From a bacterium (GTDB taxonomy: Bacteria > Bacillota > Clostridia > Lachnospirales > Lachnospiraceae), in the NCBI GenBank assembly GCA_023664305.1, contig JAMPFT010000001.1:507609-571608 (forward strand): a stretch of 64,000 nt of DNA. The letters run 5' to 3'. Made by a program: the position numbers and the translations under genes. The notes beneath the pieces were generated by a model, which was not told where the DNA came from, did no database searches, and saw only the letters and a program-made list of their open reading frames with translations. Every line of letters begins with the position of its first letter. Position 1 is the stretch's first letter. This document shows, piece after piece, positions 4,462 through 14,872 of the stretch.

Positions 4462-5498
4462 TGTCCCGCTCCCCCGCTTTCCTCTGCGTTATTTTCACTT
4501 ATCCCGGCGCTTTGGGCTGCAGTGTCTTCCGCCGCAATACTTTCCGCCGCGGCGCCTTCCGGCGTCCTGTCCTCTTGCTCTTTCTCCTCCCGGGCTTTCT
4601 CCTCCCGGACTCTCTCTTCTCTTGCTCTCTCTTCTCTTGCTCTCTCCTCCCGGGCTCTCTCTTCTCTCGCTCTTTCTTCCCGGGCTTTCTCCTCTCTTGC
4701 TCTCTCCTCCCGGGCTCTTTCCTCTCTTGCCTTCTCCTCCCGGGCTTTCTCTTCTTCCGCTTTTTCCTTCTCTTCCTTCTCCCTGTTCTCTCCTGTCTTA
4801 CCTTCCTTCGTACTGCCTTCCTTTTCTCTTTCTTCCGTCACCCCGTCCTTTTTCCCGGACGTATTCCAATTCTTCTTTCCTCTGCCCTTTTTCTCCGTCA
4901 CCTCCACATAAGTGCCGTCTACCGCCCGCATCTTATCCAGATACTTTCTGATCTTTGCCGCAAAGTACAGGGTGATAACGCAGTCGCCCAGACCGCTTAA
5001 GATCAGTCCCGCTCCCAGCAGCCGGAAGAACAGCTCCGCCGCCTTAAAAGGATTGCAGACCAACAGGATCCCCAGCCCTACATTCACGACAGCCGCAACC
5101 AACATCGCGATCCAGTTGCCGTATTCCATGCGCTTCATATCGATCACATCCTGCAGCTTGCTGCAGCCGCTGACCAAGATCAGCGCCCCCAGCAGAAAAG
5201 GAATCAGGGAAATAATAAACTCCACCTTGTTCAATACGATGACGCCTGCCGCGATACCGATCAGGCCGTGCAGGAAATCATTGTGATAATAATTTTGATG
5301 CGCGTCCCGGAGCAGATAGCTGATCATGGATACCGCGCCCCCCACGATCAGGATAATACCGATCAGATACCCCATGGACTTTACCATGGTCTCCGGGATC
5401 ACCAGCGCCACAATTCCCAGCACAATATACAATAACCCCGTCATCAACGCATCCCACTTCATCTCCCGCAACAGATTCATTTCTTTTAGTTTCTTCAT
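4458..5498 (-). CDS. DUF308-type membrane protein with charged repeat tail
   Basis: A 346-residue protein with a hydrophobic N-terminal half (about residues 14-190, roughly six helices in the pattern of DUF308/HdeD-like proteins, with LYIVLGIVALVIP and LIGIILIVGG) and a very hydrophilic C-terminal half. The tail is a low-complexity run of EEKAREERARE-type units (about residues 245-315) that should form a long single alpha helix. The start MKKLKEMN is preferred because AAAGGAGG lies 10 bp upstream. It is translationally coupled to the CBS protein. Function is unknown; DUF308 proteins are linked to stress tolerance in other bacteria. Confidence 0.7.
   Translation of the reverse strand: MKKLKEMNLLREMKWDALMTGLLYIVLGIVALVIPETMVKSMGYLIGIILIVGGAVSMISYLLRDAHQNYYHNDFLHGLIGIAAGVIVLNKVEFIISLIPFLLGALILVSGCSKLQDVIDMKRMEYGNWIAMLVAAVVNVGLGILLVCNPFKAAELFFRLLGAGLILSGLGDCVITLYFAAKIRKYLDKMRAVDGTYVEVTEKKGRGKKNWNTSGKKDGVTEEREKEGSTKEGKTGENREKEEKEKAEEEKAREEKAREERAREERAREEKAREERAREERAREERAREERAREERVREEKAREEKEQEDRTPEGAAAESIAAEDTAAQSAGISENNAEESGGAGQ
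4585..4750. repeat. In-gene tandem repeat coding ERARE units
   Basis: A run of imperfect 15- to 18-bp units, on the plus strand alternations of CTCTCTTCTCTTG and CTCTCCTCCCGGG, encodes the Glu/Arg/Ala tail of the DUF308 protein. All length changes seen keep multiples of three. Such runs change copy number easily by slippage. The complementary strand also stays open (SSLALSSRALSS-like), which is a by-product of the repeat. Confidence 0.7.
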
Positions 5499-5621: not shown

Positions 5622-6125
5622 TTACTTTCTGCCGCAGCACTTTTTGTACTTCTTGCCGCTTCCGCAAGGACAGGGATCATTGGGATATATCTTTGCTTCC
5701 TTTACGATCGTCGTAGAGGACTTCTGCTCTTTATACAGCGCCTTTCTGGTCTCCTCGTCAAAAATATCCTGCCACTCCTCCAGATTATACAGCCAGTCCG
5801 CCTCGGCAGCGACCATATTCTTGTAGAGCAGCGCCTTGTCGAAGCCCAAATTTACTTCCGTGTCCTCCTCCATCTCCTCGATGGGATTCTTCTCCACAAG
5901 ACTGTCGTTGATACCGTCCAGAAAGCCCACAATCGTCATCAGCGGAACATTGTACTTCTCCGCCAGCTCCTTTACCGTTCCCCGGACGGTCTCGTCCGGA
6001 TTTTTCAGCAGCTGCGCGTAGATTTCCTTCTCCGCCTGAAAATACGCCCCCCAGATTTTCTGAAGCTGGGCCTGTCCCACAGATTCGTCATACGCTATCT
6101 TTTTCCATTCGTCCAATAATGCCAT
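5622..6125 (-). CDS. SEC-C metal-binding domain protein
   Basis: A 167-residue protein ending in a SEC-C zinc motif, [16 protein letters not shown] (about residues 151-167), like the C-terminus of SecA. The upstream part is a predicted helical domain rich in acidic residues with [16 protein letters not shown]. No SecA motor is present. Stand-alone SEC-C proteins are common in Firmicutes and may deliver the zinc finger to ribosomes or SecB-like partners, but no function is established. It has its own promoter (6175-6203) and a terminator, so it appears monocistronic. Confidence 0.85.
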
Positions 6126-6174
6126 AGAAATATACCACCTCTTTATTATTCGGAATACCGATACTACGCTCTTA

Positions 6175-6203
6175 AGTATATAACAGTTCTTGGCTTATGA
6201 CAA
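6175..6203 (-). promoter_or_regulatory. Promoter for SEC-C gene
   Basis: Minus-strand TTGTCA (6203-6198) and TATACT (6180-6175) with a 17-bp spacer. An AGAGGTGG ribosome-binding site follows ahead of the start at 6125. Confidence 0.7.
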
Positions 6204-6514
6204 TAAAAATTTTTTTGGAAAAAGGGAATTTCTTTGCATAAATCACTTTTTTCGGGGCAGACTTTCTATTGTCAAGGAACCCCCTCCTTTGATCTGCGCG
6301 GGGAATCCGCCGGTATACCTGCCGGCGGTCGCCGTGCATTCGGGCCGGACGGTCCTTTTTTCGCAAAAGATAAAATAATACTTAGGTTTCCCTTTTCTCG
6401 GAAACCTTATCCTCCCCTTTTTAAAAGGTCCCGGGCTTAGCGTTTGGTGCAGGTCCGGGATTTTTATAGTGCAAACTGTATTCTTCCGTCAAAAGGAATA
6501 ATTCTTTTACAGAA
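6204..6514. other. Hairpin-rich intergenic stretch
   Basis: No convincing gene. Three inverted repeats are visible: 6307-6328 (CCGCCGG/CCGGCGG), 6384-6407 (AGGTTTCC/GGAAACCT, 8-nt loop) and 6429-6460 (TCCCGG/CCGGGA followed by TTTTTATAG on the plus strand). The last could terminate transcription on either strand and lies just past the Rpn nuclease gene. A 64-codon open frame across the region lacks a ribosome-binding site and protein-like composition. Confidence 0.5.
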
Positions 6515-7390
6515 TCACATTCCAATTCCTGTCTCCTCAATAAACTCCTCTACGCCCTCTACCCTGGACGCCGTCAGAAGCCAGCCTTTCAAGAGCTCTC
6601 TATCCTTCTGCCCGCGGATAAAATCCTCCAATTCGACTGGGACAGCACCCTTCTGCGACAGCAGCTGCCAAACTGCCTCGGCCAGCCCTTCCGCCTTTCC
6701 CGCTTCTCTGCCTTCCATCCTGACAAAATCATCTCTGGCGTTCCGATCCCTGATTTCTTTCAGATGGGCCTCATGCAGCGCCCTCAGACTCTTTCTCAGA
6801 CTCATTATCTTCATCTCCCTCATCGCCTCCGCGATCCCCGGATTCTTTGCGCTTATCATCTCCAACTCTCCCTCCGTCTTTACATTCAGCAGCCGGATCC
6901 AGTCGTCCACCGCCGTCCCTTTTAGCTGCTTCCGCAGTTCAATGACATGCATCTCAAACAGATCCGAATAATCCTGTCCTTTTTCATCCCGCATCCGATA
7001 TACCCTGTGGTACTCCGGCTTCTCATCCAGATTAAAATCCAGAAGATTGATGCAGATGCATTTTTTCAGCTTGTGATACCGTTCCCCGATCAGCAGTTCC
7101 TCCGTATACATCTTTGCCAGATAAAACAGACTTCTCCTGTCCCAGTCCGCCACCATCTTAATCTGCAGCTCGATGTCAACCGTTTTGTCATCATTGAGCT
7201 CCACCCTCACATCCAGAACGCCCTGCTTCTGCCAGAAATAACGCTTCCACAAAAAAGGGTTTACCAGCTTTACCGACCGAATTTCCTCCACGGGTATTCC
7301 CAGCACGTCACTGATAAAATACTTCCGTACCTCCTCATTCGACATCACCCGCTTAAAGCTGAAGTCGTACTTTAACGATATCAATCCCAT
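6515..7390 (-). CDS. Rpn family recombination-promoting nuclease / putative transposase
   Basis: A 291-residue protein of the PD-(D/E)XK family transposase group (Rpn/YhgA-like). The N-terminal LKYDFSFKRVMSNEE is the family signature. The nuclease core has Asp60 (GVLDVRVE) and Glu74-Leu-Gln76 (IELQIKM), so the catalytic site looks intact. Later parts are helical, with EIRDRNARDDFVRMEGREAGKAEGLAEA typical of these proteins. E. coli homologues nick DNA and promote RecA-independent recombination; many copies are also treated as mobile. No terminal inverted repeats were found around it, so it is probably not an active transposon. Its leader carries an unusual structure that may hide the ribosome-binding site (7397-7450). 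Confidence 0.85.
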   Translation of the reverse strand: MGLISLKYDFSFKRVMSNEEVRKYFISDVLGIPVEEIRSVKLVNPFLWKRYFWQKQGVLDVRVELNDDKTVDIELQIKMVADWDRRSLFYLAKMYTEELLIGERYHKLKKCICINLLDFNLDEKPEYHRVYRMRDEKGQDYSDLFEMHVIELRKQLKGTAVDDWIRLLNVKTEGELEMISAKNPGIAEAMREMKIMSLRKSLRALHEAHLKEIRDRNARDDFVRMEGREAGKAEGLAEAVWQLLSQKGAVPVELEDFIRGQKDRELLKGWLLTASRVEGVEEFIEETGIGM

Positions 7391-7396
7391 CCGTTT

Positions 7397-7450
7397 CCTC
7401 CTTTGCGCAGGAGGTCTCTTTCGTCAAACGTCTTTCCGAAAATCTCCTGC
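7397..7450 (-). promoter_or_regulatory. Alternative hairpins masking the Rpn Shine-Dalgarno
   Basis: On the minus strand CCTCCT (7414-7409) is followed by a 6-nt loop and AGGAGG (7402-7397), the Shine-Dalgarno itself, 6 nt ahead of the ATG. The overlapping CTCCTGC (7413-7407) can pair instead with an upstream GCAGGAG (7450-7444), freeing the Shine-Dalgarno. The two helices are mutually exclusive, which is the layout of a translational on/off switch. Read on the plus strand, the larger hairpin is followed by TTTTTT. Confidence 0.55.
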
Positions 7451-7600
7451 TTTTTTATTATTGTTTGGAATTTAAAAAGCATAGATTTTCCGATACTTTT
7501 GAACCTTCAGAAGAAGTAAAGAAAATAAGAAACGATTATGCTTTGAGCAAAGCATAGCACAGCTATAATAAATATGCAAGGAATATTTTTCCTTCCTTCT

Positions 7601-10600
7601 CTATCTCAATTCTCCCAAAACACACCGAACCTCCTGATAAAAGGGCGGGTAGATCTGAAGGGCCTGCTTTAACAATACTACGTTTTCACTGTTGGCTACG
7701 CCGTCAGCCAGAGCAGACGCCATGAGATAAACCGCTCTAATCTCCGGAGGCAGAGATGTATCCTCTAAATTCTCCAAAAGCTTAGGACTATAATACCGTT
7801 CTGCAAAGGCTCCTTCTGCCAGAATATAGGCTTTCAAAATCTGCATGGACGCCTCTTCTTTTTCGTCGGATTCCGCCTGCTTCCCTGCATCTGAAATCCG
7901 ATTTTTCACATACGCTTCCTTTAGTATCCGAGCGCAAAGAGCCAGCTCTGAGAGGGGCGTATCACCATCCACAAACCGACCGGCTTCCGCGGCCTCCAGA
8001 GCGTATTCGGTGAGTTTCTCCCTCACCTTGTCCCTCTTCCCAAGCTCAGATGACGCAAGCCAGCCCTGCACTGCGGCGACGCTGAGGTGAGACAGGATTT
8101 CCGGGAAACGCTGCTTTTGCTGCTGCGCTACGGCGTAACGGGTCATGCCTGCGGCGAAAGCGTCCAACACGGTTTCTGACCATTCCTCCCATTGCAGGGG
8201 AGTAAGCATTCCGCAAAGTGCCTCGAATACAGCGGAGCCGGCAGCAAACCCCTGGTCGAACACCGCTATTTTCTTATCTCCCGCCATTTCCAGAGAAAAA
8301 CCGTTCAAGAGCTCTAACGCTTTCTCCTCCTCTCCCAGCCGCAGACCGGTACAGAAACCGAGCGAAAAAATATCCGAGATATACCGGCTGCTTTCCATTG
8401 CCTGCAGACTGTAGAAGGTCATTCGCTTCGCGGGATCCGGATCCCTTCTATACTCCTCCAGCAGCCCTGCATACCGTTCAAAATAAGTCATTATTTCTCT
8501 GGCTGGTCTCTCCTTAACATAAGCCAGACTGGTCATGAAAAAGGCATTCAAACCAAGTTCCGCCGTAATCAGGGGAAAAACCGTATTCAAAGCATCCGCC
8601 CAATCAAATAGCCTCTCGTCTTCCTGCTCATACAGGCAGTTTGCTAATCCTCCGATGCTTTCTCTTCCTCTATATATTTTTTTCAATTGAATACAGAGCG
8701 ACACACACTGTACAAATAACCGTAGCGCAGTATTCGTACTTTTTATTCCTTTATACTCATTTGCCAGCTGAAACAGATAACGAACATCCTCGGGATACTC
8801 ATATACATCATAAATCAAGATGTTTGCATTGCGCTGAAATTTTGCTCGCATTTTATCCGGCCGGTCATTGACAAAGCCATAGTGATGGGCGTAAGACATA
8901 AGCTGCCTGCATTTCCCGCGGACAGAAAGCGCGTCATGGATACGGCCCTCAAAATGAAGCTCTGGCGTAATCAACGCCATACGCGGCGTATGGTGATCTC
9001 CGTATTCCTGTCCCTGCGAATCCATATAGTTTCGCTGGATATAGGTCGCGTAGTCATATTTCTTGTATTCCCCGGTTCTAAAAAAAATCAGGATATCCTC
9101 CACATCCTCAAACCACTCGTCATCGTCGATCGACAGATACCAGAGTCCTCTGGCGTGACGAATCGCCTCATTTCGCACGGCGGACATGTTGTCATGCCAT
9201 GGATGCTCATATACTCTGGCCCCATACCTCTTACAGACCTCAACAGTACCGTCCGTGCTGCCGGTATCAATGACAACCAATTCTGAATCCAATCCGTCCA
9301 GCAAGGGCTTTATATGCGACAGACAGCGTTCTATCGTGCCGATCTGGTTACTTACCGGTACGCCGACGGTTAAAAGCAAAGGACGACCGCCGTATTTTCC
9401 CCTTTGATAGACCGGATTCTTCTCATAAGCAAACTTTCCCGCTTCATCCGCAGTGCGCTCCAGTTTTTCCGGTTCCAGCTTTACCATGGGTAGATTTTCC
9501 AGTGCCGGAACCGTCACCATATTTCTCAGCGAATTTCCCTCAAAAGCGGATCCCATCTGAATCTGGTTCTGCAATAATTCAAATCGATTCTCGTAGTCCG
9601 AAAGGTAAGGCTCCAAGGTCTCCTTATCCAGATGCTCCACCACCTGAATCTTCCAGTAGTCGGAGCATACCTCCGCATCTGTGGTAAAACAGAGATAGTC
9701 CGTGTCCGGCTCCCGGTATACCGGCGGATAGGGGTAAGCATATCGGCTCTCCTCCCGCCGAAATTTCTGATAAATCACCTTACTCCCGCCCCCTACCACA
9801 GGCAGCGCCCTCTTACGCCAATAGACCTGCATGTGGTCTCCATATTCCCTCTCATTCGCAATAACGGATTCCCGCTCCAGCTTTTCCAGCTCTTTTCTCG
9901 TAAAGCGTTCCGCCGTAAAAGGCTTCTGCTCCCAATAGGGAATCCCGTGCTGATAAAAATACGAACGCACAAACTGTCCGTAATTGGAATTATATTTTCG
10001 GTCAAACACTTCCAGTCCGGCAGCCCGCGCCAGATAGTCCAGACTCTCTCTGGAATGCAGGAAAAGATGTCTCGGCGCATCCAGCTGATACCAGTGAGGC
10101 CCGTATTTCTCAAAGGCAATGTTAGGATAGGTAGGGATTGTCATATAGAGGATTCCGTCCTCCTTCAAAAGCCTCCTTGCGCTTTTCAGCGCTTCCAACG
10201 GGTCTGCCATATGCTCAAAGGAGTCGCTCATCTGGATAATGTCGAAAGTACCGTCCCCTTCCATCTCATGAATGGAACAGCTGCGGATCTGTACCCTGTC
10301 CCCATAAGTTCTGTCGTGATCCAAAAAGGGATCGCAGCCGTACAGGTTCCCCCAGCCGGAGGCCGCCTGCTGCAATAACCAGGCGCCTGCGCCGCAGCCC
10401 ACATCCAACACCTTACTCATACTGGAAACCGGTGTCTGAAAGATAATGTCCGAAACATCTTCCACCTGCATGGAATAATAGTTTTCTCCGTAATAGTCCC
10501 CCAGATTTTCCGGAACCTTGCTGATCTGCAGACACTTACATTTCTCACAGGCGAAATAGACAAACTCCTCCCTTGTCCCCTGCATCATCTCCCGAACCTG

Positions 10601-10696
10601 ATAGGTCTCAAACTCCCCCTCCGTACCGCATATTTTACAGACGTGAGATCGCCTGCCCAGCATCCGCTTTGTCTCGTCTTTTTTCCACTCCGCCAT
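7601..10696 (-). CDS. Methyltransferase-glycosyltransferase 2-helical repeat fusion, probable flagellin glycosylation
   Basis: A 1031-residue multidomain protein. It starts with a zinc-ribbon-like segment (Cys20, Cys23, Cys50, Cys53). A SAM-dependent methyltransferase follows, with motif I VLDVGCGAG (about residues 96-104) and DIIQMSDSFEHM. A GT2 family glycosyltransferase begins near residue 440 (TVGVPVSNQIGTIERCL, VVIDTGSTDGT, LSIDDDEWF as the nucleotide-sugar/metal site). The C-terminal 400 residues are helical and TPR-like. It lies directly downstream of flagellin on the same strand, an arrangement seen in Clostridia where such enzymes build and methylate the O-linked flagellin glycan. 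A palindrome (7537-7555, TATGCTTTG/CAAAGCATA) lies past its 3' end. The sugar is unknown. Confidence 0.85.
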   Translation of the reverse strand: MAEWKKDETKRMLGRRSHVCKICGTEGEFETYQVREMMQGTREEFVYFACEKCKCLQISKVPENLGDYYGENYYSMQVEDVSDIIFQTPVSSMSKVLDVGCGAGAWLLQQAASGWGNLYGCDPFLDHDRTYGDRVQIRSCSIHEMEGDGTFDIIQMSDSFEHMADPLEALKSARRLLKEDGILYMTIPTYPNIAFEKYGPHWYQLDAPRHLFLHSRESLDYLARAAGLEVFDRKYNSNYGQFVRSYFYQHGIPYWEQKPFTAERFTRKELEKLERESVIANEREYGDHMQVYWRKRALPVVGGGSKVIYQKFRREESRYAYPYPPVYREPDTDYLCFTTDAEVCSDYWKIQVVEHLDKETLEPYLSDYENRFELLQNQIQMGSAFEGNSLRNMVTVPALENLPMVKLEPEKLERTADEAGKFAYEKNPVYQRGKYGGRPLLLTVGVPVSNQIGTIERCLSHIKPLLDGLDSELVVIDTGSTDGTVEVCKRYGARVYEHPWHDNMSAVRNEAIRHARGLWYLSIDDDEWFEDVEDILIFFRTGEYKKYDYATYIQRNYMDSQGQEYGDHHTPRMALITPELHFEGRIHDALSVRGKCRQLMSYAHHYGFVNDRPDKMRAKFQRNANILIYDVYEYPEDVRYLFQLANEYKGIKSTNTALRLFVQCVSLCIQLKKIYRGRESIGGLANCLYEQEDERLFDWADALNTVFPLITAELGLNAFFMTSLAYVKERPAREIMTYFERYAGLLEEYRRDPDPAKRMTFYSLQAMESSRYISDIFSLGFCTGLRLGEEEKALELLNGFSLEMAGDKKIAVFDQGFAAGSAVFEALCGMLTPLQWEEWSETVLDAFAAGMTRYAVAQQQKQRFPEILSHLSVAAVQGWLASSELGKRDKVREKLTEYALEAAEAGRFVDGDTPLSELALCARILKEAYVKNRISDAGKQAESDEKEEASMQILKAYILAEGAFAERYYSPKLLENLEDTSLPPEIRAVYLMASALADGVANSENVVLLKQALQIYPPFYQEVRCVLGELR

Positions 10697-10854: not shown

Positions 10855-12693
10855 TTAGCCCAGCAGGGACAGAACGCCCTGGTTGCTCTGGTTCGCCTGA
10901 GCCAGCATTGCCTGACCGGCCTGAGCAAGGATGTTGTTATTGGAGTACTTCACCATCTCGGAAGCCATATCCGTATCACGGATTGCTGCTTCTGCGCTGG
11001 TAGTATTCTCTACGACGTTATCCAGGTTGTTGATCGTGTGCTCCAGACGGTTCTGGATCGCGCCGAGTGCGGAACGCTGCTTGGAAACCTGTGCGATCGC
11101 GTCAGCGATAGTATTGACCGCCTCATCCGCGTTGGTGGAATCCTTACCGGTTACGCTGACCTTGTCGATGCCAAGGCTCTTTGCGCTCATGGACTGGATA
11201 TCCACAGAAATTTTGTTCTCCTCGGTGGTGTCAGCGCCTACCTGCAGGCTGAAGTTCAGGACATCCTTCGCTTTGTCAACAGAAGACTTTTCCGCAATAT
11301 TCAGAGTAATCTTAACGTCCTTATAGCCGCTGATCTTCGTGCTGTTTGCTGCGAAAGCCTCTGTCTTCAGATCGTTAAAGTCACTTGCTGCAAAAGCCCC
11401 AACATCTACTTTCTTACCGGCATCCTTGATTTCCACAGAAACCTCTTCTCCGTCTGCATCGGTCTTATTCGTATTCGCTGCGCCATAAGTTGTAAGAACC
11501 TGCTTTGCTGTAATCTGAGCGCTGACAATATAATCATCACCTACCAGCTTCTGCAGCTCCTCCAGCGTTTTAAAGCTGTTAGCATCGTTGCTCGTCTTAT
11601 TTGCGTCATAAGTATAGGTCTTGCCATTAATCGTAATGGAATTACCGTCCTTAAGGTCTCTCTGTGCATCCACAGAAGTTCCTAAAGCATCCGTTGCAAC
11701 TGTCTGACCTACCACATCCTGCGTTGCTTTGATCTCAAATGCATAGGACTCGCCTACCGCCGCGCTACGCAAACTTGACCATACATCCGCTGCATTGTTA
11801 ATCATATCCGACTTGGCAGTAACCTCTGTAAAGGAATTATACCTTGCTGCAGAATCTGTTGCGTTCACCGACGCAAACTGAATTGCCTGTACCGCATTCT
11901 TCGTATCGTCAGTCTTTCTTCCGTCTAACTTGGACTCTACGCTAAGCTTGCCGACGGTATCGCCGGAAGCCTTAAAGTAATGCTTCAGGACATCATCATT
12001 ATTGATCGCTTCCGCCAGATTCTTTGCGGTCGCCTCCGCGTCTTTACCGGTCTTAAAGACGACGTCACGACTTCTCTTATCGCCGTTTTCATCCAAATAG
12101 GTAATCGTAGCGGTATCCTCAGTTCCGGTATCCAATTTCTTATCCGTTGCCATATTCATGGTTCCGGAAAAGATGTTGCCCTTCGCCTGAACAATGGTTG
12201 CATCCGCGATCCTATCCTTTCCGTCAGTTACGCTGCCGATATGCGCGCTGTTCTCGCCCAACTTCTTGCTCTGGCCCTCGCCCTTCAACAGATAAGTCTC
12301 ATTGAACTTCGTGGTCTCGGATACACGGTCGATCTCGGTGATCAGCTGATCGATCTCATCCTGTACAGACTGGCGATCGGTCTCGGACATGGTGCCGTTT
12401 CCTGCCTTAACTGCCAGCTCGTTCATTCTCTGAAGCATGTCATGTACTTCGGTCAGAGCGCCTTCAGCGGTCTGTACAGCGGAGATACCGTCCTGTGCGT
12501 TTGCGGAAGCCTGGGTCAGACCTCTGATCTGCTTACGCATCTTCTCACTGATGGAAAGGCCTGCAGCGTCGTCAGCCGCACGGTTGATCTTGTAACCGGA
12601 AGACAGCTTCTCGGTGGACTTTGCCTGGGTCTTGGTGGTCAGTCCCAACATTCTGTTGGAGTTCATCGCTGTTAAGTTGTGTTGTACTATCAT
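10855..12693 (-). CDS. hag: Flagellin
   Basis: A 612-residue flagellar filament subunit, secreted by the flagellar type III system. The N-terminal D0/D1 region (about 1-140) is classical: MIVQHNLTAMNSNRMLG, then KLSSGYKINRAADDAAGLSI. The C-terminal D1/D0 region (about 525-612) has ALGAIQNRLEHTINNLDN and ends AMLAQANQSNQGVLSLLG. The 380-residue centre is Thr/Ser/Asp/Lys-rich, surface-exposed and variable, which offers many O-glycosylation sites. The leader carries two CsrA-type motifs (12702-12733) around an AAGGAGG ribosome-binding site. No sigma-28 promoter was found directly upstream. Transcription probably enters through csrA from the invertible segment. Confidence 0.96.
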   Translation of the reverse strand: MIVQHNLTAMNSNRMLGLTTKTQAKSTEKLSSGYKINRAADDAAGLSISEKMRKQIRGLTQASANAQDGISAVQTAEGALTEVHDMLQRMNELAVKAGNGTMSETDRQSVQDEIDQLITEIDRVSETTKFNETYLLKGEGQSKKLGENSAHIGSVTDGKDRIADATIVQAKGNIFSGTMNMATDKKLDTGTEDTATITYLDENGDKRSRDVVFKTGKDAEATAKNLAEAINNDDVLKHYFKASGDTVGKLSVESKLDGRKTDDTKNAVQAIQFASVNATDSAARYNSFTEVTAKSDMINNAADVWSSLRSAAVGESYAFEIKATQDVVGQTVATDALGTSVDAQRDLKDGNSITINGKTYTYDANKTSNDANSFKTLEELQKLVGDDYIVSAQITAKQVLTTYGAANTNKTDADGEEVSVEIKDAGKKVDVGAFAASDFNDLKTEAFAANSTKISGYKDVKITLNIAEKSSVDKAKDVLNFSLQVGADTTEENKISVDIQSMSAKSLGIDKVSVTGKDSTNADEAVNTIADAIAQVSKQRSALGAIQNRLEHTINNLDNVVENTTSAEAAIRDTDMASEMVKYSNNNILAQAGQAMLAQANQSNQGVLSLLG

Positions 12694-12701
12694 AATTTAC
12701 C

Positions 12702-12733
12702 TCCTTGGCTTTACCGGGCGCGAATCCGTTCGC
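12702..12733 (-). promoter_or_regulatory. Predicted CsrA-binding sites in flagellin leader
   Basis: On the minus strand GCGAA-CGGA-TTCGC (12733-12720) forms a 5-bp hairpin presenting A-CGGA in the loop. AAGGA (12706-12702) is part of the flagellin Shine-Dalgarno. Both fit the ANGGA core bound by CsrA dimers, and their spacing of about 20 nt resembles the two-site hag leader of Bacillus subtilis. CsrA binding would block ribosome access. The csrA-like gene lies just upstream. Confidence 0.6.
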
Positions 12734-12761
12734 ACCGGTGAATCATTGTTTAATAGTTTTT

Positions 12762-12829
12762 ATAATAAACCGGATGTGTCCGCCCACTGCCGGGCCCTTG
12801 GCTTCGATGCTTCCGCATCCGGTTATTAT
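12762..12829 (-). other. Long stem-loop between csrA and flagellin
   Basis: Arms at 12762-12776 and 12816-12829 pair over about 14 bp with one bulged base (ATAATAACCGGATG on the minus strand). The 39-nt loop contains a further GGGCCC palindrome. There is no T-run after the stem, so read-through from csrA into flagellin is plausible, perhaps with processing here. Confidence 0.5.
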
Positions 12830-12841
12830 CCTGTCTCGAAA

Positions 12842-13147
12842 TCAGTCCTCCGCCGCTTTTGCCTGAGGCGCTGTTTCCTGCTCTTTCTTTTCCGGGTTCC
12901 CAGCAATGACTACCCTCTTCTTTTTGTATTTCTCCGGTCTTTCCGGTTCCGGATAATACCTGGGGAGCTTTGCCTTGAGCTCCGGATCCGTGAACTTCTT
13001 TTCGATGACGCTGCTGCGCACCACGTTCACATCCTTTGGCGCGTCTATCATGACACGCATGTGTTTTCCGGTTCCTCCGAGGAAGATGATCCTGACGTCC
13101 TCGCCGATCATCAGGTATTCCTCCGTGCTCACTGTCAGTCTTAACAT
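12842..13147 (-). CDS. csrA: CsrA-like carbon storage/flagellin translation regulator with C-terminal extension
   Basis: A 101-residue RNA-binding regulator. Residues 1-52 match CsrA: MLRLTV, EEYLMIGEDVRI, IDAPKDVNVVR. The RNA-contacting Leu4 and Arg44 are kept, but the usual TRK at positions 5-7 is TVS, so Arg6 is lost. Residues 53-101 are a Pro/Lys/Glu-rich extension absent from the ordinary 60- to 75-residue protein. The start at 13147 has GGGAGG 4 nt upstream; the open frame continues upstream through the recombination site but without family similarity. It lies directly ahead of flagellin. In Bacillus and relatives CsrA, countered by FliW, represses flagellin translation; fliW is not in this window. 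The extension may alter binding or localisation. Confidence 0.8.
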   Translation of the reverse strand: MLRLTVSTEEYLMIGEDVRIIFLGGTGKHMRVMIDAPKDVNVVRSSVIEKKFTDPELKAKLPRYYPEPERPEKYKKKRVVIAGNPEKKEQETAPQAKAAED

Positions 13148-13192
13148 CTCAACCTCCCTGCCGTTTTCCAGCATCCATGCTATTCTGATATT

Positions 13193-13225
13193 GAATGCAA
13201 CACTTTGATACAAATTGTTGTATTC
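13193..13225. repeat. 33-bp recombination site A
   Basis: GAATGCAACA, a 13-bp spacer (CTTTGATACAAAT), then TGTTGTATTC: two 10-bp inverted arms with one mismatch around a spacer, the standard form of a tyrosine recombinase core site. The right 20 bp are identical to site B (13962-13994) read in reverse. A possible weak csrA promoter on the minus strand (TTGTAT, 17 bp, TATCAG) overlaps the spacer. Confidence 0.75.
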
Positions 13226-13251
13226 AACATTCAATTCAAGGAGGAAATCAC

Positions 13252-13836
13252 ATGGGCACAACACAACCAATCAGAAGCACGGAATTGCTGCACGAATTTA
13301 AGGAATATTACCTGTCGGAACGCCCGAACCCCAGAAACCGCGTCTTATGCATCCTGGGGCTGAACACGGCGCTGCGCATTTCGGACATTCTTCACTTAAA
13401 ATGGGATGATGTTTATGATTTTACAAAGAAAAAATACCGCTCCCATATCTCCGTCACGGAGCACAAGACCGGTAAAATAAACCGAATCGCAATCAATCGT
13501 GCGATCACAGAAGTCTTAGACGATTACCATACTTTTCTCAAAACCCCTCCCGCGGCAGGGGACTACCTGTTTCAAAGCAGGAAGGGGACAAACTGCCCTC
13601 TGGGACGCAGTCAGGCCTTCCGCATTATCAAGGAGGCCGCGCAAAATGCAGGGATGACTCAGCACGTCAGCTGCCATTCCCTGCGGAAAACCTTCGGCTA
13701 TCACGCCTGGCAGCAGGGAACGCCGCCCGCTTTGCTCATGGATATTTACAATCACTCGTCCTATCGGATCACAAAGCACTATCTGGGAATAGACCAGGAC
13801 GACAGGGACAACGTCTTTTTAAACATCTCGCTGTAG
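13252..13836 (+). CDS. Tyrosine recombinase, probable DNA invertase
   Basis: A 194-residue phage-integrase-family recombinase consisting almost only of the catalytic domain. The active-site set is complete: Arg42 (NTALRISD), Lys72 (EHKTGK), His142-x-x-Arg145 (HSLRKTFGYHAW), His168 (NHSSYRIT) and the nucleophile Tyr177 (KHYLG). It lacks the usual N-terminal core-binding domain, like other short clostridial and Bacteroides recombinases. AAGGAGG stands 7 nt ahead of the chosen ATG. It is divergent from csrA and flanked by two inverted 33-bp sites, which it most likely recombines. Small recombinases of this class act in flagellar or surface phase variation (for example RecV in Clostridioides difficile). 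Confidence 0.9.
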   Translation: MGTTQPIRSTELLHEFKEYYLSERPNPRNRVLCILGLNTALRISDILHLKWDDVYDFTKKKYRSHISVTEHKTGKINRIAINRAITEVLDDYHTFLKTPPAAGDYLFQSRKGTNCPLGRSQAFRIIKEAAQNAGMTQHVSCHSLRKTFGYHAWQQGTPPALLMDIYNHSSYRITKHYLGIDQDDRDNVFLNISL

Positions 13837-13919
13837 AAGAGAGACAGAAAAAGACAGAAAAGACAGAAGACAGAAAAGTTTTTTAAAAAAAGATTTTTTA
13901 AAAAAATTTCAAACGGGTC

Positions 13920-13947
13920 TAAAGTTTTTTCCGATTCATCCGAAATA
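13920..13947 (+). promoter_or_regulatory. Sigma-28 (SigD/FliA) promoter inside the invertible segment
   Basis: TAAAGTTT (13920-13927), with TAAA followed by 15 bp and then TCCGAAAT (13939-13946). The -35 matches the sigma-28 consensus fully, and the -10 differs from GCCGATAT only at its first base and its fifth. It reads rightwards into the site B hairpin 10 bp beyond, so it would now give only a very short RNA. No gene with motility function lies to its right. Confidence 0.7.
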
Positions 13948-13956
13948 GATAGTGTA

Positions 13957-14005
13957 AGCGGGAATACAACAATTTGTATCAGTATGTTGTATTCCCGCTT
14001 TTTTA
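13957..14005 (+). terminator. Recombination site B doubling as a terminator
   Basis: The site (13962-13994) is GAATACAACA, a 13-bp spacer, TGTTGTATTC. The outer bases extend the pairing to 15 bp, AGCGGGAATACAACA with TGTTGTATTCCCGCT, followed by TTTTTT. That is a textbook terminator for the recombinase gene and for the sigma-28 promoter. Because the extra stem bases (AGCGG) lie inside the segment and the CCGCT plus T-run lie outside, inversion would split the terminator. Confidence 0.75.
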
Positions 14006-14142
14006 TGTCTCTCATTTTAATACGCGGTCCAAAACCCGCAAGGAAATTACAATCTGATTATTCTCGTGCTTTCCAAATATAACTTTTTCATACTTAATTC
14101 ATGAATTGGAACAACAGATTAAAAAAACACACGAAAAACGCA

Positions 14143-14171
14143 TTGACAATCAACCGAAATAATTGTAGAAT
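14143..14171 (+). promoter_or_regulatory. Consensus promoter of putative sRNA
   Basis: TTGACA (14143-14148), 17-bp spacer, TAGAAT (14166-14171), just outside site B. Start expected near 14178. Confidence 0.75.
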
Positions 14172-14177
14172 TTACCT

Positions 14178-14268
14178 AACAGAAAGCGAATAAGATATTA
14201 CGTCTGAGGACATAATATAAATTGTACGCCGAAGGGCACGGACACCTATCATGGTGTCCATTTTTTGT
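14178..14268 (+). ncRNA. Putative 90-nt small RNA next to the flagellar switch
   Basis: Between the promoter and a strong terminator (GGACACC, 6-nt loop, GGTGTCC, then TTTTTT; 14240-14266) there is no open frame with a ribosome-binding site. A first hairpin at 14195-14218 pairs ATATTA..GTC with GAC..TAATAT around a UGAG loop, presenting GAGGA near the loop; a second GGA is at the base of the terminator stem. GGA-bearing hairpins are what CsrA binds, so a CsrA-titrating role is conceivable. It could also be a leader with an attenuator, although the next gene has its own promoter. No known riboswitch class was recognised. Confidence 0.55.
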
Positions 14269-14453
14269 CCTACAACATTTTTCACAAAATTCTTTTTCTG
14301 TCATTTTCATATTCGATTCTTCTTTCTGACAGATTTAATTATACTATCAACATCATCCTCGTTGCACCCAACAGACATTACCCATTTTTGCGCTTCTTTA
14401 TCGCCGGTATCTATCGACAGATGTTTTCGGATATTTTCGCGCGCCGACGTACT

Positions 14454-14482
14454 TTGACTTTTGGGCGGGATCATGATATGAT
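14454..14482 (+). promoter_or_regulatory. Promoter for small membrane protein gene
   Basis: TTGACT (14454-14459), 17-bp spacer, TATGAT (14477-14482), about 30 nt ahead of the start codon at 14519. The 185 bp between the sRNA terminator and this promoter are A/T-rich and show no other feature. Confidence 0.7.
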
Positions 14483-14518
14483 AGTGATTCAGAAATCACA
14501 GCGCAAGGGAGAAATACC

Positions 14519-14872
14519 ATGGAAAAAAAAGAAAAGAAAGATGCACGGGAGGCCGCGTCTCCTAAAAGGAAAACGACCTCCAGGCAAGTCGTCGCCATCA
14601 TCGGTATCGTCCTGCTGGTGTTGATGTATGTGGCGACCTTAATCGCCGCTTTTTTCGACACCTCCGTCTCCGGCAGGCTGTTCTGGATGTGCCTGTTCTC
14701 CACCATGGCTGTCCCGATTCTCATCTGGATCTATACCTGGATGTACGGCAAGCTGACCGGAAAGCATACCTTCGCGGATTTTGAAGCAGGGATCGCGGGA
14801 AAGGATGCCGAGGCGGATTCCGCGTCGGAGAATGCAGGGAAGAAATCCGAAGCAGATTCCTTACACCCCTAA
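14519..14872 (+). CDS. Small two-helix membrane protein
   Basis: A 117-residue protein with a basic N-terminus (residues 1-22), two transmembrane helices (about 24-46 and 52-75), and a hydrophilic acidic C-terminus. AAGGGAG precedes the ATG by 7 nt and a good promoter is present, so it is a real gene. No family recognised. Its last 12 bp overlap the 3' end of the convergent HAD gene. The orientation opposite to most neighbours may reflect independent regulation. Confidence 0.75.
   Translation: MEKKEKKDAREAASPKRKTTSRQVVAIIGIVLLVLMYVATLIAAFFDTSVSGRLFWMCLFSTMAVPILIWIYTWMYGKLTGKHTFADFEAGIAGKDAEADSASENAGKKSEADSLHP

Follow-up and report, generated by a model that had tools for sequence, protein, structure and literature searches.

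An inverton enclosing a tyrosine recombinase and a σ28-type promoter beside a csrA–flagellin pair of a Lachnospiraceae bacterium

In what is likely a gut bacterium of the Lachnospiraceae, a csrA–flagellin pair is adjoined by a self-contained inverton: an 802-base segment with inverted repeats at its ends, in which a recombinase gene and a σ28-type promoter lie between two inverted sites and which has been assembled in the OFF orientation (positions 13193–13994 of the window, the whole 64,000-nucleotide stretch of DNA that was analyzed). Its anatomy is conserved among relatives, where both orientations occur. The segment is very probably a phase switch for the csrA–flagellin pair, worked by the enclosed recombinase on the sites that flank it. 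The locus is made up of the following features:

10855–12693, minus strand: flagellin of 612 amino acids, second gene of the switched pair (PF00669, E 6.5e-43; PF00700, E 2.2e-25)
12842–13147, minus strand: csrA-like gene of 101 amino acids, first gene of the switched pair (ATG at 13147; PF02599, E 2.8e-16 in a longer reading)
13193–13225, plus strand: csrA-side (proximal) inverted recombination site, 33 bp
13252–13836, plus strand: tyrosine recombinase of 194 amino acids, stop codon included in the coordinates (PF00589, E 3.5e-24)
13920–13946, plus strand: σ28-type promoter, TAAA-N15-TCCGAAAT, pointing away from csrA (OFF)
13956–14004, plus strand: terminator-like hairpin, 13956–13971 pairing with 13985–14000, T tract to 14004
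13962–13994, plus strand: distal inverted recombination site, 33 bp

Read as inverted copies, the two facing sites are identical at 29 of 33 positions, including all of the first 20, in agreement with the initial annotation; the pair scores 23, against a maximum of 14 in 300 first-order random sequences of the region. The recombinase reported between them is indeed complete: starting from the ATG at 13252, it matches PF00589 with 85.9 bits (cut-off 27.1). Both this match and the residues R, K, H-x-x-R, H, and Y, whose catalytic roles we take to be those usual for such enzymes, place it among the tyrosine recombinases; R42, K72, H142, R145, H168, and Y177 are conserved without exception across the 122 intact members of the family, 8 of 130 recombinases having been set aside as broken or short before the comparison. 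PF00589 is its sole match, with nothing of a serine recombinase of the Hin type, and it falls short of the NCBIfam cut-offs for the FimB/FimE DNA invertases (NF007371, 48.2 of 222 bits; NF007370, 44.5 of 221 bits) and of the curated ones for XerC, XerD, and XerA (the best, XerA, at 79.1 of 220 bits). The nearest solved structures are XerA-like (E about 5e-6). No promoter of its own was found for the recombinase gene; because just 26 nt (13226–13251) separate the site from the ATG, any such promoter has to share bases with the site or be located outside, and expression of the recombinase could vary with the orientation of the segment.

The segment's promoter, judged by the σ28 consensus for Lachnospiraceae flagellin promoters in PMC3720852, points away from the csrA–flagellin pair, as first described. 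Inversion would place it upstream of csrA, as proposed, at a spacing of 93 nt (−10 end at 13241, to the csrA ATG) instead of the suggested 85 nt or so. The claim that csrA has no σ28 promoter in front of it also holds: at the csrA-side site, none of the 76 OFF elements of the family described below, the window's included, has a σ28-like candidate toward csrA, and in a control of the promoter test 40 of 1520 random stretches passed. The minus strand of 12650–14300 contains no σ70-like match. The promoter pattern alone is not enriched genome-wide (49 matches vs. 43 for the reversed control). In the 76 OFF elements the −35 element is TAAA in 58 and TTAA in 18; the promoter consensus of the family is partly built in, since the promoter test fixes some of the letters. 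FliA, the σ28 factor, is encoded in the genome (269.3 bits, cut-off 189.6) and presumably drives the segment's promoter.

Several features surround the locus. Directly 3′ of the flagellin gene, and separated from it by a hairpin seen by eye, lies a gene for a 1031-residue methyltransferase plus family-2 glycosyltransferase (7601–10696, minus strand), which may be a flagellin-modifying enzyme. Beyond the distal site, 14143–14259 (plus strand) contains a σ70-like promoter, TTGACA-17-TAGAAT (11 of 12 positions), and, ∼70–90 nt further on, a hairpin with a T tract, a possible small RNA without an Rfam match; across 12600–14600 no Rfam family reached its gathering score, the five matches up to E 1 lying far under their cut-offs. 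The window contains one tRNA.

The locus belongs to a wide family that, together with a second architecture, an either/or form, and two further modules in the same genome, the initial annotation had missed. Fifty-five loci, mainly in Lachnospiraceae MAGs, came from a scan of named genomes; the recombinase is found in 44 of 138 genomes of the window's genus at E 1e-30 or better and, at 1e-45, in 30 of 397 genomes sampled at the family level (its own included). Clustering of 164 recombinase places at 99% nucleotide identity, with loci retrieved for other purposes excluded, gave 130 clusters: 95 adjoin csrA or flagellin, and 35 have neither in the stretch examined by script. The script detected an inverted site pair in 94 of the 130, and 82 of these 94 also have a promoter directed at a site. 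These 82 elements comprise 76 OFF, 2 ON, 2 with flagellins on both sides, and 2 with no target in view (one is at a contig end, and the other is the third copy of the window's own genome). csrA is present in every one of the 76 OFF elements and flagellin in 73, and 31 of the 76 have a member in the named collection. Of the 95 clusters with csrA or flagellin as a neighbor, 15 failed every test for sites plus promoter, and L057, at least, is a miss of the script, both sites and the promoter being visible there.

Two architectures can be distinguished among the OFF elements. In class A (64 elements) the recombinase points away from csrA and the promoter stands behind it; in class B (12 elements) the recombinase points toward csrA and the promoter stands before it, divergently. 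Class B sites (of the GTAACACAA-TGTATA-TTGTGTTAC type, as in L094) presumably resemble the XerCD dif site. In the recombinase tree, the ancestor of the 11 placeable class B OFF elements has 13 tips (support 0.893), namely those 11, the genome's own third copy (L094), and L099; L203/L072 falls outside. From this placement, L099, which has the look of class A, and L203/L072, which has that of class B, are flips. At two further loci, L195 (G028) and L196 (G012), head-outward flagellins stand on both sides with a single promoter between the sites, so that either orientation would serve one flagellin; no csrA was found at these two loci.

Some individual members of the recombinase family deserve mention in their own right. 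L096 (G047) has three modules within about 12 kb, all OFF, each with csrA and flagellin matches adjoining. At L054, in an Oscillospiraceae MAG, a recombinase relative lies between inverted sites (4822–4855 and 5779–5812) flanked by head-out solute-binding-protein genes (PF00496; 2677–4614, minus strand, and 5874–7916, plus strand), and inside, by eye, a TTGACA-17-TATACT promoter points to one of them; this is perhaps an either/or switch for two transporters. L217, L218, and L221 contain recombinase relatives whose neighbors are sugar-epimerase/glycosyltransferase genes or a chemotaxis receptor, so the family may also control other genes with surface or sensory functions by inversion.

Comparison of related genomes for the flipped form, a check put forward with the initial annotation, yielded two ON/OFF species pairs, which support both the OFF assignment of the assembled orientation and a recombinase-driven promoter switch. 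When L072 (ON) is aligned with L076 (OFF), the segment (73%) runs opposite to the csrA–flagellin flank and to a short distal flank, the csrA-side outer arm being unchanged. Between L099 (ON) and L104 (OFF), the segment (78%) is opposite in direction to both flanks (csrA flank, 81%; distal flank, 94% over 49 nt); L099 is a decayed ON locus, since its csrA match is shortened and 6.6 kb contain no flagellin. In these relatives it is the inner part of the site that changes sides, the outer arm keeping its place next to csrA. Both orientations are present in the family and were not seen for the window's own copy. Single-sided elements are OFF in 76 of 78 cases and ON in 2 (binomial p 2e-20); the excess may reflect selection against ON, by the host or through cost, or else biased recombination.

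The same genome encodes further relatives of the window's recombinase, two close (63 and 56% identity) and one weak. The second module, at the end of contig C20, has 32-nt sites, a second csrA adjoining, and a near-identical promoter, and it is OFF. The third module (L003/L094) has sites of different sequence, and its promoter points outward to the left, where a csrA leader lies between the element and a 100-N gap. Exactly 55 bases of this leader are identical to the last 55 of the csrA–flagellin piece L115, which likewise ends at a 100-N gap; joined through this overlap, the third module would be ON. The final base of the site is also the final shared base; directly after it, the ON form (C) and the predicted OFF form (T) first diverge. 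Such a shared contig end of fixed length is what a de Bruijn assembler puts out at a branch point, so both orientations should have been among the reads, and this suggests that the third module was sequenced in both. A search for its site with up to 3 mismatches gave 4 matches in 3 places; since all were already known, the other branch is absent as a further contig. By eye, L201 and L202 have no sign of a branch-like contig end, their contigs continuing past the site.

These observations bear on the possibility that the window's segment flipped once and is now fixed OFF in this strain, leaving its flagellin silent. A locked relic of this kind would fit the strong OFF excess (76 to 2), the assembly of the locus without a break, and the decay visible in some relatives (L099; 8 of 130 recombinases not intact), but the window has a complete recombinase with every catalytic residue in place, as well as intact sites, and a sister module in this genome is read as ON and has a contig edge resembling a branch point, so that we regard this explanation as improbable. 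The window's copy probably does flip, and by its own recombinase.

The distal site is part of a terminator-like hairpin in the OFF form, a new feature that the initial annotation had missed. Made of the distal site with its inner and outer flanks, and predicted solely for the OFF form, the hairpin (13956–14000) has 16 pairs followed by T6 (−24.4 kcal/mol, z −7.0); a simple terminator scan with a loop limit of 3–8 left it unlisted. Inversion would part its inner arm AAGCGGG from CCCGCTT. Among the 76 OFF elements, a T-tract (5 T in 6) is present at the outer flank of the distal site in 69 and of the csrA-side site in 8 (distal alone in 61, both sides in 8, neither in 7; Fisher p 2e-25, with the caveat that related species are not independent). 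By a stricter measure, 5 T in 8 directly after the stem, a T-run is found in 45 of 76 OFF forms and in 0 of 76 simulated ON forms. Three ON elements have the T-tract on the side away from the promoter's direction, and the two both-sided loci have none on either side (maximum 4 T in 6). The OFF transcript is more stable than the ON in 61 of the 74 OFF elements compared, 2 of the 76 being too short (medians −20.8 vs. −14.8 kcal/mol); the other 13, among them L204 (the OFF member of the pair with L072), have a simulated ON RNA that is equally or more stable.

We propose a mechanism in which recombination between the two flanking sites, carried out by the enclosed recombinase, would invert the segment and its promoter with it. 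In the OFF form, the promoter points away from csrA and straight into the distal site, where the terminator-like hairpin would end a short RNA. In the ON form, the inner half of the hairpin would join the csrA-side half site, where neither a pairing arm nor a T tract is present, and transcription from the promoter would continue through csrA to the flagellin gene. That the assembled orientation is instead the working one, the promoter driving a short RNA or a far-side gene and inversion being secondary, would agree with 76 of 78 elements being assembled so; yet the hairpin and its T tract directly after the promoter, the lack of any conserved far-side gene on an informal look, and the two both-sided loci with no such tract on either side render it very unlikely. 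Least credible of all is that the sites are the ends of a small mobile, recombinase-borne cassette in which promoter direction is incidental, for although a single recombinase between inverted ends resembles one and 35 of 130 clusters, some far from flagella, have no csrA or flagellin found, 76 of the 78 single-sided elements have a promoter directed away from csrA, the outer arm remains with csrA as the inner part flips, and the outer flanks of distal and csrA-side sites are consistently different.

The phase switch most likely varies which flagellins build the filament. The initial annotation had taken it for a switch of the flagellum as such, which is at odds with the main flagellar cluster, where another flagellin, with neither a recombinase nor csrA adjoining, stands behind a noninvertible σ28-type promoter ∼200 nt upstream. 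Given this fixed-promoter flagellin and at least two more modules, a flip would more probably change which flagellin is made than whether there are flagella. The genome has four CsrA genes, one within the main cluster, where its neighbors are FlgM, FlgK, FliW, FliD, and FliS, and three beside modules, two of them directly and the third, it appears, by way of the 55-base overlap. There are seven Flagellin_N matches, one of them weak and FlgL-like by position. In pairwise comparison of five flagellins, the divergent one on C10 being left out, 124–139 of 140 N-terminal and 72–86 of 86 C-terminal residues are common, and the middles are 18–34% identical in nine of ten pairs and 73% identical between the C21 flagellin and the fixed one. 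The flagellin of the second module would be the one on C14 or the one on C21.

Collectively, these data incline us, with some reserve, toward a Lachnospiraceae “flagellin wardrobe”: a set of flagellins that differ in the middle and hardly at all at the ends, each controlled by a recombinase-bearing flip cassette with a self-erasing terminator site, alongside either/or cassettes that would alternate between two flagellins. In the gut nearly all cassettes would be OFF, with one fixed flagellin shown and the rest kept back, possibly as a defense against host antibody. Flagellins of gut bacteria are antibody targets in Crohn's disease (PMC11285207). Those of the Lachnospiraceae have a prominent place among these targets. 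If many of them are switched, a genome sequence fails to tell which flagellin a cell displays; serology and TLR5 studies would need the orientation, which could be counted at once in existing metagenomic reads. Moreover, the OFF excess of 76 in 78 makes the limitation of flagellin by motile gut commensals directly measurable.

No prior report of a switch of this type was found in the full-text literature searched, which leaves out most subscription journals. For gut Clostridia, a PhaseFinder survey describes promoters that invert in the vicinity of surface genes and ties them to nearby tyrosine recombinases (PMC11892184); its Clostridia example has about 200 bp between repeats, unlike the window's segment, and “flagell” is absent from its main text. 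With its promoter between inverted sites, the window's segment has the makeup of an invertible promoter. FimB/FimE-type invertases are about 200 amino acids long, similar in size to the window's recombinase. In Escherichia coli these tyrosine recombinases invert a promoter between short inverted repeats (PMC2784873); the fim recombinases are encoded beside their segment, whereas the window's is encoded inside. The flagellar switch of Clostridioides difficile (Cdi4, RecV) likewise combines clostridial flagellar genes with a tyrosine recombinase. It controls the flgB operon at a step later than transcription initiation, and Rho terminates the OFF transcript (PMC7446863). RecV is encoded outside its segment, and inverts segments of the 154–230 bp class, unlike the window's enclosed enzyme and 802 bases. 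At C. difficile cwpV, the OFF form is proposed to build an intrinsic terminator where the repeat meets the inverted region, and the ON form to break it (PMC2784873). The window's OFF form is similarly predicted to build a terminator-like hairpin that the ON form breaks; at cwpV, however, the promoter lies outside and the terminator alone flips, whereas in the window the promoter would flip too and the recombinase lies inside.

The closest parallel in layout is the Salmonella Hin/hix system, a flagellin phase switch that works by inversion. There, too, an inverting segment with a promoter and a recombinase gene sets flagellin expression, and in the window both likewise lie inside the segment, beside a flagellin gene. 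The enclosed recombinase, first held to be the unusual point of the locus, has its precedent here, Hin being located within its own invertible segment (PMC5903667; PMC2784873). The window's enzyme differs from Hin, a serine recombinase, in being a tyrosine recombinase (PF00589), and the system as a whole differs from Hin/hix in its sites, its σ28-type promoter, its csrA partner, its terminator-like OFF site, and the presence of several modules per genome.
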